Below are positions 2,405 to 12,869 of a stretch of DNA of 64,000 nucleotides, in pieces. The translations under genes and the position numbers were made by a program. Under the pieces are notes generated by a model. That model worked only from the letters and a program-made list of their open reading frames with translations, had not been told where the DNA came from and did no database searches. The first letter of the stretch is position 1. Every line of letters begins with the position of its first letter. The stretch is taken from assembly GCF_025666195.1 (NCBI RefSeq), contig NZ_CP102592.1:930001-994000 (forward strand), written 5' to 3'. This DNA comes from Xanthomonas sp. CFBP 8443 (GTDB taxonomy: Bacteria > Pseudomonadota > Gammaproteobacteria > Xanthomonadales > Xanthomonadaceae).

Positions 2405-3778
2405 ATGTTGCAGCAGCAGAGACGCCCGAGCATCTTGTCTAGTTTGAGGACCGGGTTGCTAGGCTTGAATCTTCAGGCATGGATACGTCGCCAGCCATAT
2501 CTGCAACGTATTTATCGGCTGTTTCCGCAAGGGTTGCGTGATCAGCTTGCCGCGCTTCTCTCTGCGCGATCAGTCGCACAAACTCGTTTCCAGCGGACGA
2601 GCGCCTGGGATGCTGCGCAAGGTGCCGCTAGGCCTTGGCAGGCGAAGATGAATAGCCCCTCTTTGCAGTCTCCCGGAGTCAATATCCTGGGCTATATCCG
2701 CGGCGAATTCGGTCTGGCAGAGAGTGCAAGGATGTATGCGCGCGCGCTGATCGACGCGGGCGTGCCTGTGGCGTTGTACGACATCGACCTGGGAATGCCG
2801 CATTCGTGGGGAGACCACAGCATGGATGGATTCATCGACGAAAGGCTGCCGCATCCGGTGAGCATCGTGTTCGTGAATCCCGATTATCTGGAGGCGGCGC
2901 TTGAGCATGTAGGAAAGGCTCGGATGGAGAACCGTTACGTGATCGTCTGCTGGTTCTGGGAGCTGGAGAAGATTCCGGATGCCTGGCAGGAGGCGATTCG
3001 TCATGTGGATGAGATCATGGTAGCGTCGAAGTTCATCGAAGATGCGTTCCGCCGCATCACCGAGAAGCCCATCATGCGGCTGCCGCTGCCGCTGTCGGCC
3101 GTGCATGACAGTGGCCTCCAGCGGCCTGACTTCGGCCTTGATTCGGATAAATTCCTTTTTCTCTGCAGCTTCGACTTCCACTCCTTTATTGCTCGCAAGA
3201 ATCCGCATGCTGTCGTGCGGGCGTTCCTTGCCGCATTCCCGCCCGGACGCGACGACGTGCGCCTTCTCGTGAAGTCGAGCAACGGCCATCTGCATCCCGA
3301 CAGCATGCGCGATTTGCTCAACGTCGTGGCCGGCGATCCTCGTATCCTGGTGCGTGACGAGGTCATAGACCGGGGCCATGTGCACGCGCTTCAGCGCTGC
3401 TGCGATGCCTATGTCTCTCTGCACCGCGCCGAGGGCTTCGGCTTGGGCTTGGCGGAATGCATGGCACTAGGCAAGCCAGTAATCGCGACCGGCTGGTCGG
3501 GCAACATGGAGTTCATGGATTCGACGAACTCCTGCCTTGTGGATTACGAGCTGGTCCCTGTGGCAGAAGGAGACTATCCGGATTCGGATGGTGCGCGCTG
3601 GGCCGAGGCCGATGTGGCGTGCGCGGCCGAGGCAATGCGGCGGCTCGCCGACGACCCGGTGCGTGCCCGCGCGCTTGGCGAGGTGGCGAAGCGGCACGTT
3701 TGCCGTCATCTTTCGCCGGAGCGGGCGGCGCAGCGCTTGTTGGCAAGAATTGTGGAAGTGGTGCCGGAGTCGAGCTAA
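2405..3778 (+). CDS. GT4-type glycosyltransferase (O-antigen assembly)
   Basis: This 457-residue protein has a basic N-terminal leader of about 85 residues, then a GT4 (GT-B fold) glycosyltransferase. The Rossmann start is at GVNILGYIRGEFGLAES (91-107) and the retaining-transferase EX7E motif is E343/E351 in AEGFGLGLAE. No signal peptide or membrane segment is seen, so it should act at the inner face of the membrane. ATG 2405 is chosen because the leader keeps the same codon style as the rest; ATG 2648 (MNSPSLQ) with GGCGAAG upstream is a credible alternative start. As first gene of the rightward O-antigen operon it may add an early or adaptor sugar before the WbdA-like polymerase, as WbdB/WbdC do in E. 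coli O9a. That role is inferred from position only. Confidence 0.8.
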   Translation: MLQQQRRPSILSSLRTGLLGLNLQAWIRRQPYLQRIYRLFPQGLRDQLAALLSARSVAQTRFQRTSAWDAAQGAARPWQAKMNSPSLQSPGVNILGYIRGEFGLAESARMYARALIDAGVPVALYDIDLGMPHSWGDHSMDGFIDERLPHPVSIVFVNPDYLEAALEHVGKARMENRYVIVCWFWELEKIPDAWQEAIRHVDEIMVASKFIEDAFRRITEKPIMRLPLPLSAVHDSGLQRPDFGLDSDKFLFLCSFDFHSFIARKNPHAVVRAFLAAFPPGRDDVRLLVKSSNGHLHPDSMRDLLNVVAGDPRILVRDEVIDRGHVHALQRCCDAYVSLHRAEGFGLGLAECMALGKPVIATGWSGNMEFMDSTNSCLVDYELVPVAEGDYPDSDGARWAEADVACAAEAMRRLADDPVRARALGEVAKRHVCRHLSPERAAQRLLARIVEVVPESS

Positions 3779-3864
3779 GTCCCAGCGCGCAGGGGTCGAG
3801 CCCTTTCGATGGGGCGGCAGGAATTTCGTGGGTGGATGTTCATCCGACTCGCTAACAAGTAATT

Positions 3865-3882
3865 GGAGAGGTACAGATTTTG
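3865..3882 (+). promoter_or_regulatory. Shine-Dalgarno and TTG start of wzm
   Basis: GGAGAGG at 3865-3871 lies 8 nt before a TTG at 3880. The first ATG codons, at 3886 and 3889, are 14 and 17 nt away. Spacing therefore favours the TTG start and a protein beginning MDMMRS. Confidence 0.55.
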
Positions 3883-10823: not shown

Positions 10824-10903
10824 CACGACGTATGGCTGCTGGTCCCGCGGTGGAAGGCGCAAGTGCGGTGTCATGGATTACAAATGCAGAGCAGAGAGAG
10901 ACA

Positions 10904-11944
10904 ATGAGCAATAAGAAGGCGATCATCACCGGGGTTACAGGTCAGGACGGTGCGTACCTGGCAGAGCTTTTGCTCTCGAAGGGCTACGAGGTCTTCGGGA
11001 CCTATCGCCGAACCAGTTCGGTGAATTTCTGGCGGTTGGATGAGGTTGGTGCGTCAGGTCATCCGAATCTGAAGCTCGTCGAGTACGATCTGACCGACCT
11101 CGGTGCAACCATTTCAATGGTGCAGAAGATCCAGCCGGACGAGATATATAATTTGGCAGCGCAGAGCTTTGTCGGCGTCAGTTTCGAGCAGCCGACCACT
11201 ACTGCGCAAATCACTGGCGTGGGCGCGCTGCATTTACTTGAGGCGATCCGTCTGATCGATCCGAGGATTCGCTTCTATCAAGCGTCTACGTCTGAAATGT
11301 TTGGCAAGGTGCAGGCTATTCCACAGGTAGAGAGTACGCCTTTCTACCCGCGTAGTCCTTATGGTGTTGCGAAGCTCTATGCGCACTGGATCACGGTGAA
11401 CTACCGCGAGAGCTATAACATCTTCGGTTCGAGCGGCATCCTCTTTAATCACGAGAGCCCGCTGCGCGGACGCGAGTTCGTGACCCGTAAGATCACCGAT
11501 TCAGTTGCCAAAATCAAACTGGGGCAATTAGATGTGCTTGAGCTGGGCAACCTCGATGCCAAGCGTGATTGGGGTTTCGCCAAGGAATATGTTGAAGGCA
11601 TGTGGCGAATGCTGCAGGCAGATCACGCTGATACTTTCGTCCTTGCAACGAATCGAACGGAGACAGTGCGCGACTTTGTACGCATGGCGTTCAAGGGTGC
11701 TGGCATCGAGGTTGATTTTCGTGGGCAGGATCTGCAGGAAATCGCGGTGGACGTCGCTACCGGCGAAACCCTCGTTCGCATCAACCCGAAATTCCATCGT
11801 CCTGCGGAAGTGGATCTCCTGATCGGCGACCCGGCGAAGGCTGAGCAGCTGCTTGGCTGGAAGCCGAAAACGACGCTGGAGCAGTTGTGCCAGATGATGG
11901 TGGAAGCTGATCTCAAGAGGAACGAGCGTGGTTTCTCCTTCTGA
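10904..11944 (+). CDS. gmd: GDP-mannose 4,6-dehydratase
   Basis: This 346-residue extended short-chain dehydrogenase has the NAD(P)-binding G10-x2-G13-x2-G16 in [14 protein letters not shown], the catalytic group T129-S130-E131 in ASTSEMFG, and Y153-x3-K157 in SPYGVAKLY. The segment [10 protein letters not shown] is typical of Gmd. It converts GDP-D-mannose to GDP-4-keto-6-deoxy-D-mannose in the cytosol. ATG 10904 is preferred because GAGAGAG stands just upstream; the frame is open further upstream to 10832 but without a ribosome site. GDP-mannose would come from XanA/XanB, encoded about 15 kb downstream. The gene overlaps rmd by 17 bp, so the two steps are coupled. Confidence 0.95.
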
Positions 11945-12869
11945 CCTGGCTGGCAAGAGGATCCTAGTGACGGGGGCGTCGGGTTTCACCGGGCGTTACG
12001 TCACGTCGGAGTTGAAGGCGCAGGGTTGTCACCTCATTGGACTGGGAACTCACAAAGACATCGTTGACGACTGGGCGGGCGCGCTGATTCCTGCGGACGA
12101 GTACCACCAAGCGGATCTCCGTGAGGTGGGGGCGCTGCGTGAGGTATTGACGAAATGCCGGCCGGACATGATCGTCCATCTCGCGGCGTTAGCATTTGTT
12201 GCGCACGGTCGGGTTGAAGATTTCTATAATGTAAATCTTCTCGGTACCCGTAACCTGCTGCAGGCAATCGATGATTCAGGCCTCGCGCCGGAGTGCGTTT
12301 TGCTCGCCAGCAGTGCCAACGTCTATGGCAACTCATCAACCCATCTGCTTGATGAGCATGTGCCTGCTTCGCCGGCGAACGATTACGCCGTAAGCAAGCT
12401 GGCGATGGAATATGTAGCACGCCTTTGGCGGCCGCGGTTGCCGATTGTGACCGTCAGGCCCTTCAACTACACGGGACTCGGGCAGGCCGACAATTTCCTC
12501 ATTCCAAAGGTGGTGTCTCACTTTGTCCGGCGTGATCAAAGGATCGAGTTGGGCAACCTGGATGTGGAGCGCGATTTTGGAGACGTGCGCTCGGTCGCGA
12601 ACTCCTATAGACGGCTGCTGCAGGCACCAGCCGCGATCGGTCGCACTGTCAATATCTGCTCCGGCAACACGCATTCGTTGCAAGATGTCATTGCACTTTG
12701 TAAGGAATCCACCGGCCACTCGCTGGAGGTCGTGGTAAATCCGGCATTCGTGCGGCCGAATGAAGTGAAGGTGCTTAGAGGCGACAATCGGCTCTTGAAA
12801 AGCATCATTGGAGATTGGTCGTGCCCGCCTCTCCGTGACACCCTCGATTGGATGCTCCGAGCCGCGTGA
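11928..12869 (+). CDS. rmd: GDP-4-keto-6-deoxy-D-mannose reductase (GDP-D-rhamnose synthase)
   Basis: This 313-residue SDR protein has G16-x2-G19-F-x-G22 in [10 protein letters not shown]128-S129 in ASSANVYG, and Y153-x3-K157 in DYAVSKLAM. The alternative is GDP-L-fucose synthase (Fcl/WcaG), which also uses the Gmd product. Fcl needs an epimerising cysteine in an SSCIYP-type motif, whereas this protein has SSANVYG at that place, so simple reduction to GDP-D-rhamnose is favoured. It starts with GTG inside the end of gmd, with AAGAGG a few bases upstream. The stop codon lies in a short CGCGTGA repeat. It is the last gene of the rightward operon. Confidence 0.85.

Follow-up and report, generated by a model that had tools for sequence, protein, structure and literature searches.

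We analysed a stretch of 64,000 nucleotides from Xanthomonas sp. CFBP 8443 (NZ_CP102592.1, positions 930,001 to 994,000; hereafter the window, in whose own numbering positions are given), in which a gene cluster at 2405–12869, built around a WbdD/WxcB-type terminator gene, likely serves the O-antigen of lipopolysaccharide (LPS). The genome of this strain is 5.24 Mb in a single contig. The cluster genes all run in one direction, in the order of a GT4 glycosyltransferase gene, wzm, wzt, the WbdD-type gene, a tandem GT4 gene, gmd and rmd. An earlier note, made from the letters of the window, had described them as a complete O9a-like system for a length-controlled, end-capped homopolymer, probably a D-rhamnan, in a Xanthomonas LPS island, and the genes that it named were recovered as open frames at or near the positions it gave. 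The assignment to a Xanthomonas LPS island was supported: the nearest named relatives at the locus were Xanthomonas in 10 of 10 cases (the top one X. bonasiae, 83%), and the locus is bounded by metB and etfA, the borders given for Xanthomonas LPS clusters (PMC3071791; literature statements here and below refer to excerpts of the sources cited). By this metB–etfA position, it is a wxc-type LPS locus. The G+C content was 55–61% across the cluster genes versus 67–69% for the flanking metB, etfA, rmlB and a guanosine diphosphate (GDP)-mannose gene, as expected for a variable LPS island sited between metB and etfA.

The exporter consists of the O-antigen permease Wzm (3880–4671, plus strand, as for all genes of the cluster) and the ATP-binding cassette (ABC) ATPase Wzt (4668–5960). 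Wzm matched PF01061 at 89 bits and was 40% identical to E. coli O9-family Wzm; for this and the other O9a identities, the annotated O9-family cluster on an E. coli plasmid record (L038) was the yardstick. Wzt, which at E≤1e-40 had a single match in the genome, was 55.6% identical to O9-family Wzt over 428 columns, and beyond its ATPase domain extends for about 190 residues, the earlier estimate being about 175. This extension holds a C-terminal cap-binding domain (about 5433–5936; PF14524 Wzt_C, 101 bits). The domain was 54% identical (85/158) to the O9-family domain and scored 206 bits against PDB 2r5o, which we take to be the O9a domain, versus 19 bits or less against the Aquifex aeolicus chains of an O-methyl-cap exporter. 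Wzt is thus assigned, by homology, an O9-kind C-terminal domain, and the pair a cap-recognising O-antigen ABC exporter of the O9 type.

The terminator gene (6001–8277) encodes a protein of 758 amino acids composed of a methyltransferase domain (about 6001–6615), a kinase domain (about 6616–7380), a helical linker or coil (about 7381–7923) and a tail starting at SRSWR (7924–8274). Residues 28–462 of the longer WbdD-like reading frame aligned with the WbdD of solved structure (335 bits, E 6e-99), a match that spans an N-terminal S-adenosylmethionine (SAM) methyltransferase and a kinase domain fused in one protein and that upholds the earlier identification of a WbdD-type methyltransferase–kinase. 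Identity to E. coli O9-family WbdD was 38% over 475 columns, and about 30% (76/252) to O9a in the kinase part.

Functional residues were surveyed, in the numbering of O9a WbdD, in 18 intact Xanthomonas proteins (the window, L003–L012, L014, L015, L016, L044, L081, L082 and L083), which include close relatives, the counts thus not representing independent events. The kinase residues K252, E274, E278, D351, W355, N356 and D369 were kept in 18/18, K252, D351, N356 and D369 being catalytic. The methyltransferase-pocket residues R31, C33, R36 and H197 were likewise kept in every protein. At the kinase acceptor site, all 18 carried Y230 to H, D350 to N, and R270 to L or I (H232, N346 and L266 in the window), and in the methyltransferase pocket N34E, Q35D and F194Q, with D195 variable. 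The E. coli and Klebsiella rows retained the O9a residues, except that Q35 is E in Klebsiella. Replacements Y230F and D351E/A abolish O9a kinase activity in vitro, and for O9a R270 a contact with the second sugar is predicted (PMC3482155). The plain reading of kept catalytic residues beside changed acceptor residues is a kinase that would be active and whose acceptor site is altered, and this combination across the Xanthomonas proteins appears to be a new observation. Because Tyr230 is replaced, we group the protein with WxcB/WbdD-type relatives instead of calling it an O9a WbdD.

Downstream, the tandem GT4 gene (8277–10823) encodes two modules, an N-terminal one at about 8277–9491 and a C-terminal one at about 9594–10736, each with an EGFGLPxxE motif. 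Residues 1 to 820 of its 848 aligned with annotated E. coli WbdA (plasmid NZ_CP022158.1) at 40.2% identity over 830 columns (599 bits), the N module being 36% (145/403) and the C module 48% (182/380) identical. The size and start sequence of WbdA that had been noticed earlier fit this match, the alignment beginning at residue 1, and the protein is classified by this alignment as a two-module WbdA-type polymerase. Its donor would be GDP-D-rhamnose. Gmd, the GDP-mannose 4,6-dehydratase (10904–11944), matched TIGR01472 at 475 bits (cut-off 415). The adjoining Rmd (11928–12869) fell below every NCBIfam cut-off, and is predicted from PDB matches to be the GDP-4-keto-6-deoxy-D-mannose reductase giving GDP-D-rhamnose: it scored 287 bits against 4lw8, an unnamed epimerase, and 123 and 112 bits against 6x3b and 2pk3, named GDP-6-deoxy-D-mannose or -lyxo-hexulose reductases. 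Together they support the donor pathway proposed for this cluster. GDP-mannose supply is represented in the window by a mannose-1-phosphate guanylyltransferase/isomerase (25228–26631, minus strand; TIGR01479, 760 bits, cut-off 373; one match in the genome) and a phosphomannomutase-type enzyme (26687–28117, minus strand; NF011943, 625 bits, under the 801 cut-off).

The cluster was compared with 18 other Xanthomonas loci. Genes gmd and rmd follow the WbdD-like gene in 19/19 loci (the window, L003–L012, L055–L058 and L081–L084), all of them chosen for that gene, so that the count says nothing on gmd and rmd without one. L085–L088 repeat other loci and were not recounted; G035, with a stop inside its WbdD-like gene, is outside all locus counts; and L084 of G1051, whose gene is in pieces, is counted for gmd–rmd and left out of the residue, linker and tail counts. 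An assembly artefact was ruled out by the equal gene frame at the 18 other loci (10 + 8), the polymerase slot excepted. This slot, between the terminator gene and gmd, is occupied by a WbdA-type gene in the window, L003, L057, L058, L081 (interrupted by one stop) and L084 (fragmented), and by two separate transferases in 13 loci. Two unrelated polymerase cassettes thus alternate behind one terminator and exporter, with the length of the terminator tail varying with them, which is a new finding. The acceptor-site residues were the same with both polymerase types, and Wzt was 71–79% alike across both. The suggestion that an O9a-type terminator combined with D-rhamnose genes is unusual in this genus did not hold, given the 19 loci and earlier publications that describe the parts in both X. 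campestris and X. euvesicatoria. Broken relatives were also seen, namely the stop in the WbdD-like gene of G035 (C21, 39400–41447), a TGA in the WbdA-type gene of G1044 (L081) and several genes in pieces in G1051 (L084), the last possibly an assembly error.

Counted from the S.SW[RK] motif, the tail was 116–124 residues long in 5/5 intact terminators beside a WbdA-type polymerase and 70–73 residues in 13/13 beside two separate transferases; it is 117 residues in the window, as in E. coli and Klebsiella. Since the O9a C-terminal region recruits WbdA (PMC3482155), tail and polymerase may form a matched pair. Linkage of the adjacent polymerase and terminator genes, which may simply travel together, explains the association equally well. 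Homology between the E. coli and Xanthomonas tails was tried and rejected, the shuffle test being negative (375/500, 265/500 and 282/500 shuffles reached the score). The linker is 183 residues long in the window and 131 to 276 across loci. AlphaFold placed helix at 453–516 and 523–640, with low confidence (mean predicted local distance difference test score, pLDDT, 50.9; alignment of 11 rows), and a simple autocorrelation of hydrophobic residues stayed flat at lag 7 (0.001), with a raised value at lag 11 (0.26). The coiled coil of the earlier note is therefore retained as a possible helical linker, suggested only by the low-confidence model and by composition; with no signal at lag 7, a canonical coiled coil is not proven. 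As a separate observation, the IncX5 conjugative E. coli plasmid NZ_CP022158.1 (L038, 10362–10830) encodes an O9-family WbdD of 810 amino acids with three identical copies of a stretch of coil, in frame at a spacing of 153 nucleotides. Among the matches listed, all 19 full-coverage chromosomal relatives were 2127 base pairs long, which corresponds to the 708 amino acids of O9a WbdD, making the plasmid protein a candidate natural long ruler.

WbdD-like genes were found in 5/20 genomes of the genus group of the window (matches above 500 bits, its own genome included), in 15/35 genomes of a second Xanthomonas group and, in a family-wide draw, in 10/297 genomes and 2/54 genera. Methyltransferase-only matches in 11/20 genus genomes (26 bits or less) were not counted as WbdD relatives. 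Scoring the top few candidates per genome, none was detected in 368 other genomes of the class (E≤1e-30) or in 397 other genomes of the phylum (E≤1e-25), and the viral contigs searched held no WbdD relatives. Relatives on plasmids came from nine records, all enteric; in the four surroundings read, 3/4 had O9-family annotated genes and gmd or rmd was annotated in 0/4, by a gene table that is incomplete. A Pseudomonas genome was sought as a comparison centre, but the search yielded only matches of 50–53% (3/369 genomes) and was dropped. Because these strict searches outside Xanthomonas gave no usable D-rhamnose comparators, a tie of Y230H to D-rhamnose cannot be separated from a tie to lineage on a Xanthomonas-only set. 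Apart from the terminator, open reading frames of about 990–1245 amino acids at L061–L069, in six genomes of the second Xanthomonas group, matched the first WbdA module only (37–43%), four of the six without a WbdD-like match. G1055, also without one, showed a 32% match along both WbdA modules with one stop. These frames are perhaps transferases of other O-antigens.

The metB-proximal GT4 gene (2405–3778; 457 amino acids; Pfam Glyco_trans_1_4/Glycos_transf_1) possibly encodes an adaptor or first rhamnosyltransferase. Its product gave no blastp match to E. coli or Klebsiella WbdB and WbdC at 1e-3, and near-full-length relatives (65–81%) were present at 15/18 other loci. At L057, L081 and L084 its best matches were only 26–27% identical, and the adaptor step may thus differ among WbdA-type loci. 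PF00953 genes (WecA/MraY-type, a family to which MraY belongs) and PF04932 genes (ligase/polymerase-type) had two matches each elsewhere in the genome. To call the O9a-like system complete is accordingly slightly too strong, in view of the missing WbdB/WbdC match and of the PF00953 and PF04932 genes located elsewhere.

Between rmd and etfA, a run of minus-strand genes begins with an FkbM-type methyltransferase (12964–14049; PF05050, TIGR01444 under cut-off), to which no role is assigned. It is followed by a membrane protein (14136–16158) whose translation shows multiple hydrophobic segments together with an extended soluble region at the C-terminus, with a weak PF22895 match and no NCBIfam match, GT-C-like by layout. 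Next come a flavin adenine dinucleotide (FAD)-dependent oxidoreductase (16157–17485; PF01593; NF005560, named ‘hypothetical protein’, 530 bits, cut-off 252), a GtrA-type flippase (17479–17901; PF04138, 79 bits, cut-off 26), a GtrB-type GT2, polyprenyl-phosphate sugar synthase-like (17898–18875; PF00535; 166 bits against a model for undecaprenyl-phosphate sugar transferases, under its cut-off of 529), and a short-chain dehydrogenase/reductase (SDR)-like protein (18853–19677; weak PF01370; at the L055 edge, a partial relative at 60% next to GtrB). The oxidoreductase and SDR-like protein possibly modify a sugar. GtrA, the GtrB-like GT2 and the membrane protein resemble periplasmic branching systems of three components (PMC11127046). 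L055 holds rmd-adjacent relatives of the last five genes of the block (32–81%) beside a polymerase of the other type, two separate transferases, suggesting that the cassettes for side chain and backbone may be exchanged independently; at most other loci the flanking sequence is too short to show whether the block is present.

From what was observed directly, the genes and their homology, the intact catalytic and changed acceptor-site residues and the repeated occurrence in Xanthomonas, we consider it probable that the cluster makes a D-rhamnan whose growing end is closed before export by a WbdD-type cap, likely methylphosphate. In such a system, Gmd and Rmd would convert GDP-mannose to GDP-D-rhamnose, and both GT4 modules of the WbdA-type polymerase would lengthen the chain on its lipid carrier. 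By analogy with O9a, the chain would be closed once it arrives at the kinase and methyltransferase, which would stand at the distal end of the helical linker, with linker length setting chain length, and the binding domain of Wzt would recognise the cap and admit the chain to Wzm. After export, the GtrA/GtrB/membrane-protein set would probably attach a side branch, the finished chain perhaps not being a homopolymer. The capped D-rhamnan is supported by the near-whole-length WbdA match, the WbdD match, the O9-type cap domain, gmd–rmd downstream and the GDP-mannose genes in the window, and further by X. campestris, in which the main chain is a rhamnan and a wxcB transposon mutant has no O-antigen (PMC4878081). 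The earlier proposal of an O9a-like, length-controlled and end-capped D-rhamnan is thus upheld in architecture, in the homology of terminator, polymerase and exporter and in the donor pathway, with the polymer and the cap drawn from these: the observation was right, the mechanism is plausible and the system is of a known kind.

Several points weigh against a capped D-rhamnan. The acceptor-site Tyr230 is His in all 18 proteins, at a position where Phe inactivates the O9a kinase in vitro (PMC3482155), R270 and D350 are altered as well, and the structure model of the terminator is poor. An X. euvesicatoria wxcB mutant had an unchanged LPS gel, polar effects of the X. campestris insertion are possible, and the X. 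campestris authors found that N-acetylfucosamine (FucNAc) branches matter for chain length and considered the O9 model perhaps inapplicable or in need of extension (PMC4878081). Chemistry for the source strain was looked for and none was found. The acceptor-site changes, together with N34E, Q35D and F194Q, leave some room for a D-rhamnan closed differently, by methyl only, phosphate only or at another hydroxyl or sugar, and D-rhamnose-rich O-antigens with 3-O-methyl caps do exist (PMC9445017); we regard this as rather unlikely, since the kinase catalytic residues and R31, C33, R36 and H197 are kept throughout and the Wzt binding domain is near the O9 type, not the O-methyl type. That the WbdD-type protein is an assembly factor for backbone synthesis rather than a terminator could be argued from its function being termed obscure and from conflicting mutant data (PMC4878081), but both domains keep their catalytic residues and the gene adjoins an O9-type cap-binding exporter, which makes this very improbable.

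An O9a-like polymannan, with the WbdA-type enzyme using GDP-mannose and gmd and rmd serving another glycan or part of the chain, appears unlikely too, though less so than an assembly factor. The alignment over residues 1–820 would fit it, the X. euvesicatoria wbdA1 and wbdA2 products are interpreted as polymannan synthases (PMC3071791), which also counts against D-rhamnan, and the A. aeolicus chain mixes D-mannose with D-rhamnose (PMC9445017). However, the N module is only 36% identical to WbdA, gmd and rmd stand behind either polymerase type in 19/19 loci, and the same acceptor-site residues and similar Wzt proteins accompany both types, of which the two-transferase clusters are linked to the X. 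campestris polyrhamnan (PMC3071791, PMC4878081). Compatible with the capped D-rhamnan, and in our view slightly favoured, is a capped backbone that receives branches in the periplasm from the GtrA/GtrB/membrane-protein block, the mature O-antigen being a heteropolymer. The single minus-strand run of GtrA, the GtrB-like GT2, the membrane protein and the FAD and SDR enzymes from rmd to etfA, the relatives of these five genes beside rmd in L055 and the branch genes carried by X. campestris region 3 (PMC4878081) all point this way; on the other side, the GT-C nature rests on layout, no family model names the membrane protein, and the block could serve another glycan. Because this block, which probably adds side branches, adjoins rmd, the homopolymer of the earlier note is doubtful.

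Taken together, and as a tentative proposal that we hold less likely than the capped D-rhamnan itself, Xanthomonas WxcB/WbdD proteins might form a branch, specific for D-rhamnose, within the O9a terminators, in which a re-tuned site (H232, N346 and L266) methylphosphorylates D-rhamnan ends, one head and exporter serve two unrelated, swappable polymerase cassettes with their own docking tails, and linkers of 131–276 residues give species their chain lengths. For WxcB, described in 2016 as essential for the X. campestris O-antigen (PMC4878081), the present evidence yields a concrete claim that is cheap to test, that of a kinase–methyltransferase capping D-rhamnan. The named residues may set sugar choice, and the natural variants of linker and tail suit tests of coil measuring and polymerase docking. 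Literature searches pairing WbdD with D-rhamnan, and Xanthomonas with either WbdA or methyl phosphate, listed no title or abstract opening that reports a capped Xanthomonas D-rhamnan, most subscription journals being outside their coverage.

Compared with known systems, the window shares with the polymannose system of E. coli O9a and Klebsiella O3 the order wzm–wzt–wbdD–wbdA, the domain layout, the catalytic residues and the cap-binding domain, but differs in having gmd–rmd in the cluster, no WbdB/WbdC match, a changed acceptor site and a kinase about 30% identical. A. aeolicus likewise has a capped, D-rhamnose-rich chain read by Wzt, together with D-mannose, but its cap is 3-O-methyl (PMC9445017) and its binding domain is distant from that of the window (19 bits or less). 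The Klebsiella O7 terminator also places methylphosphate on a rhamnose end and uses a coiled-coil ruler, whereas its sugar is L-rhamnose from deoxythymidine diphosphate (dTDP)-rhamnose and its kinase, quite unlike in sequence and structure, is fused with two polymerase modules (PMC11231755). Among plant-associated bacteria, the common polysaccharide antigen (CPA) cluster of Pseudomonas syringae (sensitivity class A), likened here by description rather than sequence, has wzm, wzt, gmd, rmd and a likely wbdD, labelled a glycosyltransferase, in one region (PMC12608077). Nearest are the Xanthomonas clusters, also compared by description, not by sequence. The X. campestris wxc locus (wxcA–wxcO, metB–etfA) shares the site, a wxcB-type terminator, wzm–wzt and gmd–rmd, but the polymerase slot of the window holds one WbdA-type gene instead of separate transferases, and the side-chain genes appear different. 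The O-antigen of X. campestris B100 is a rhamnan with FucNAc branches and is missing from a wxcB insertion mutant; the likeness of WxcB to WbdD was stated there in 2016, with its function called obscure (PMC4878081). The clusters of X. euvesicatoria 85-10 and X. fuscans (wbdA1, wbdA2) are apparently the published twin of the arrangement in the window: in X. euvesicatoria, wbdA1 replaces wxcC–E (PMC2585010), the cluster includes gmd and rmd (PMC3826837), and its product was interpreted as a polymannan, two-transferase clusters being tied to a xylosylated polyrhamnan (PMC3071791).

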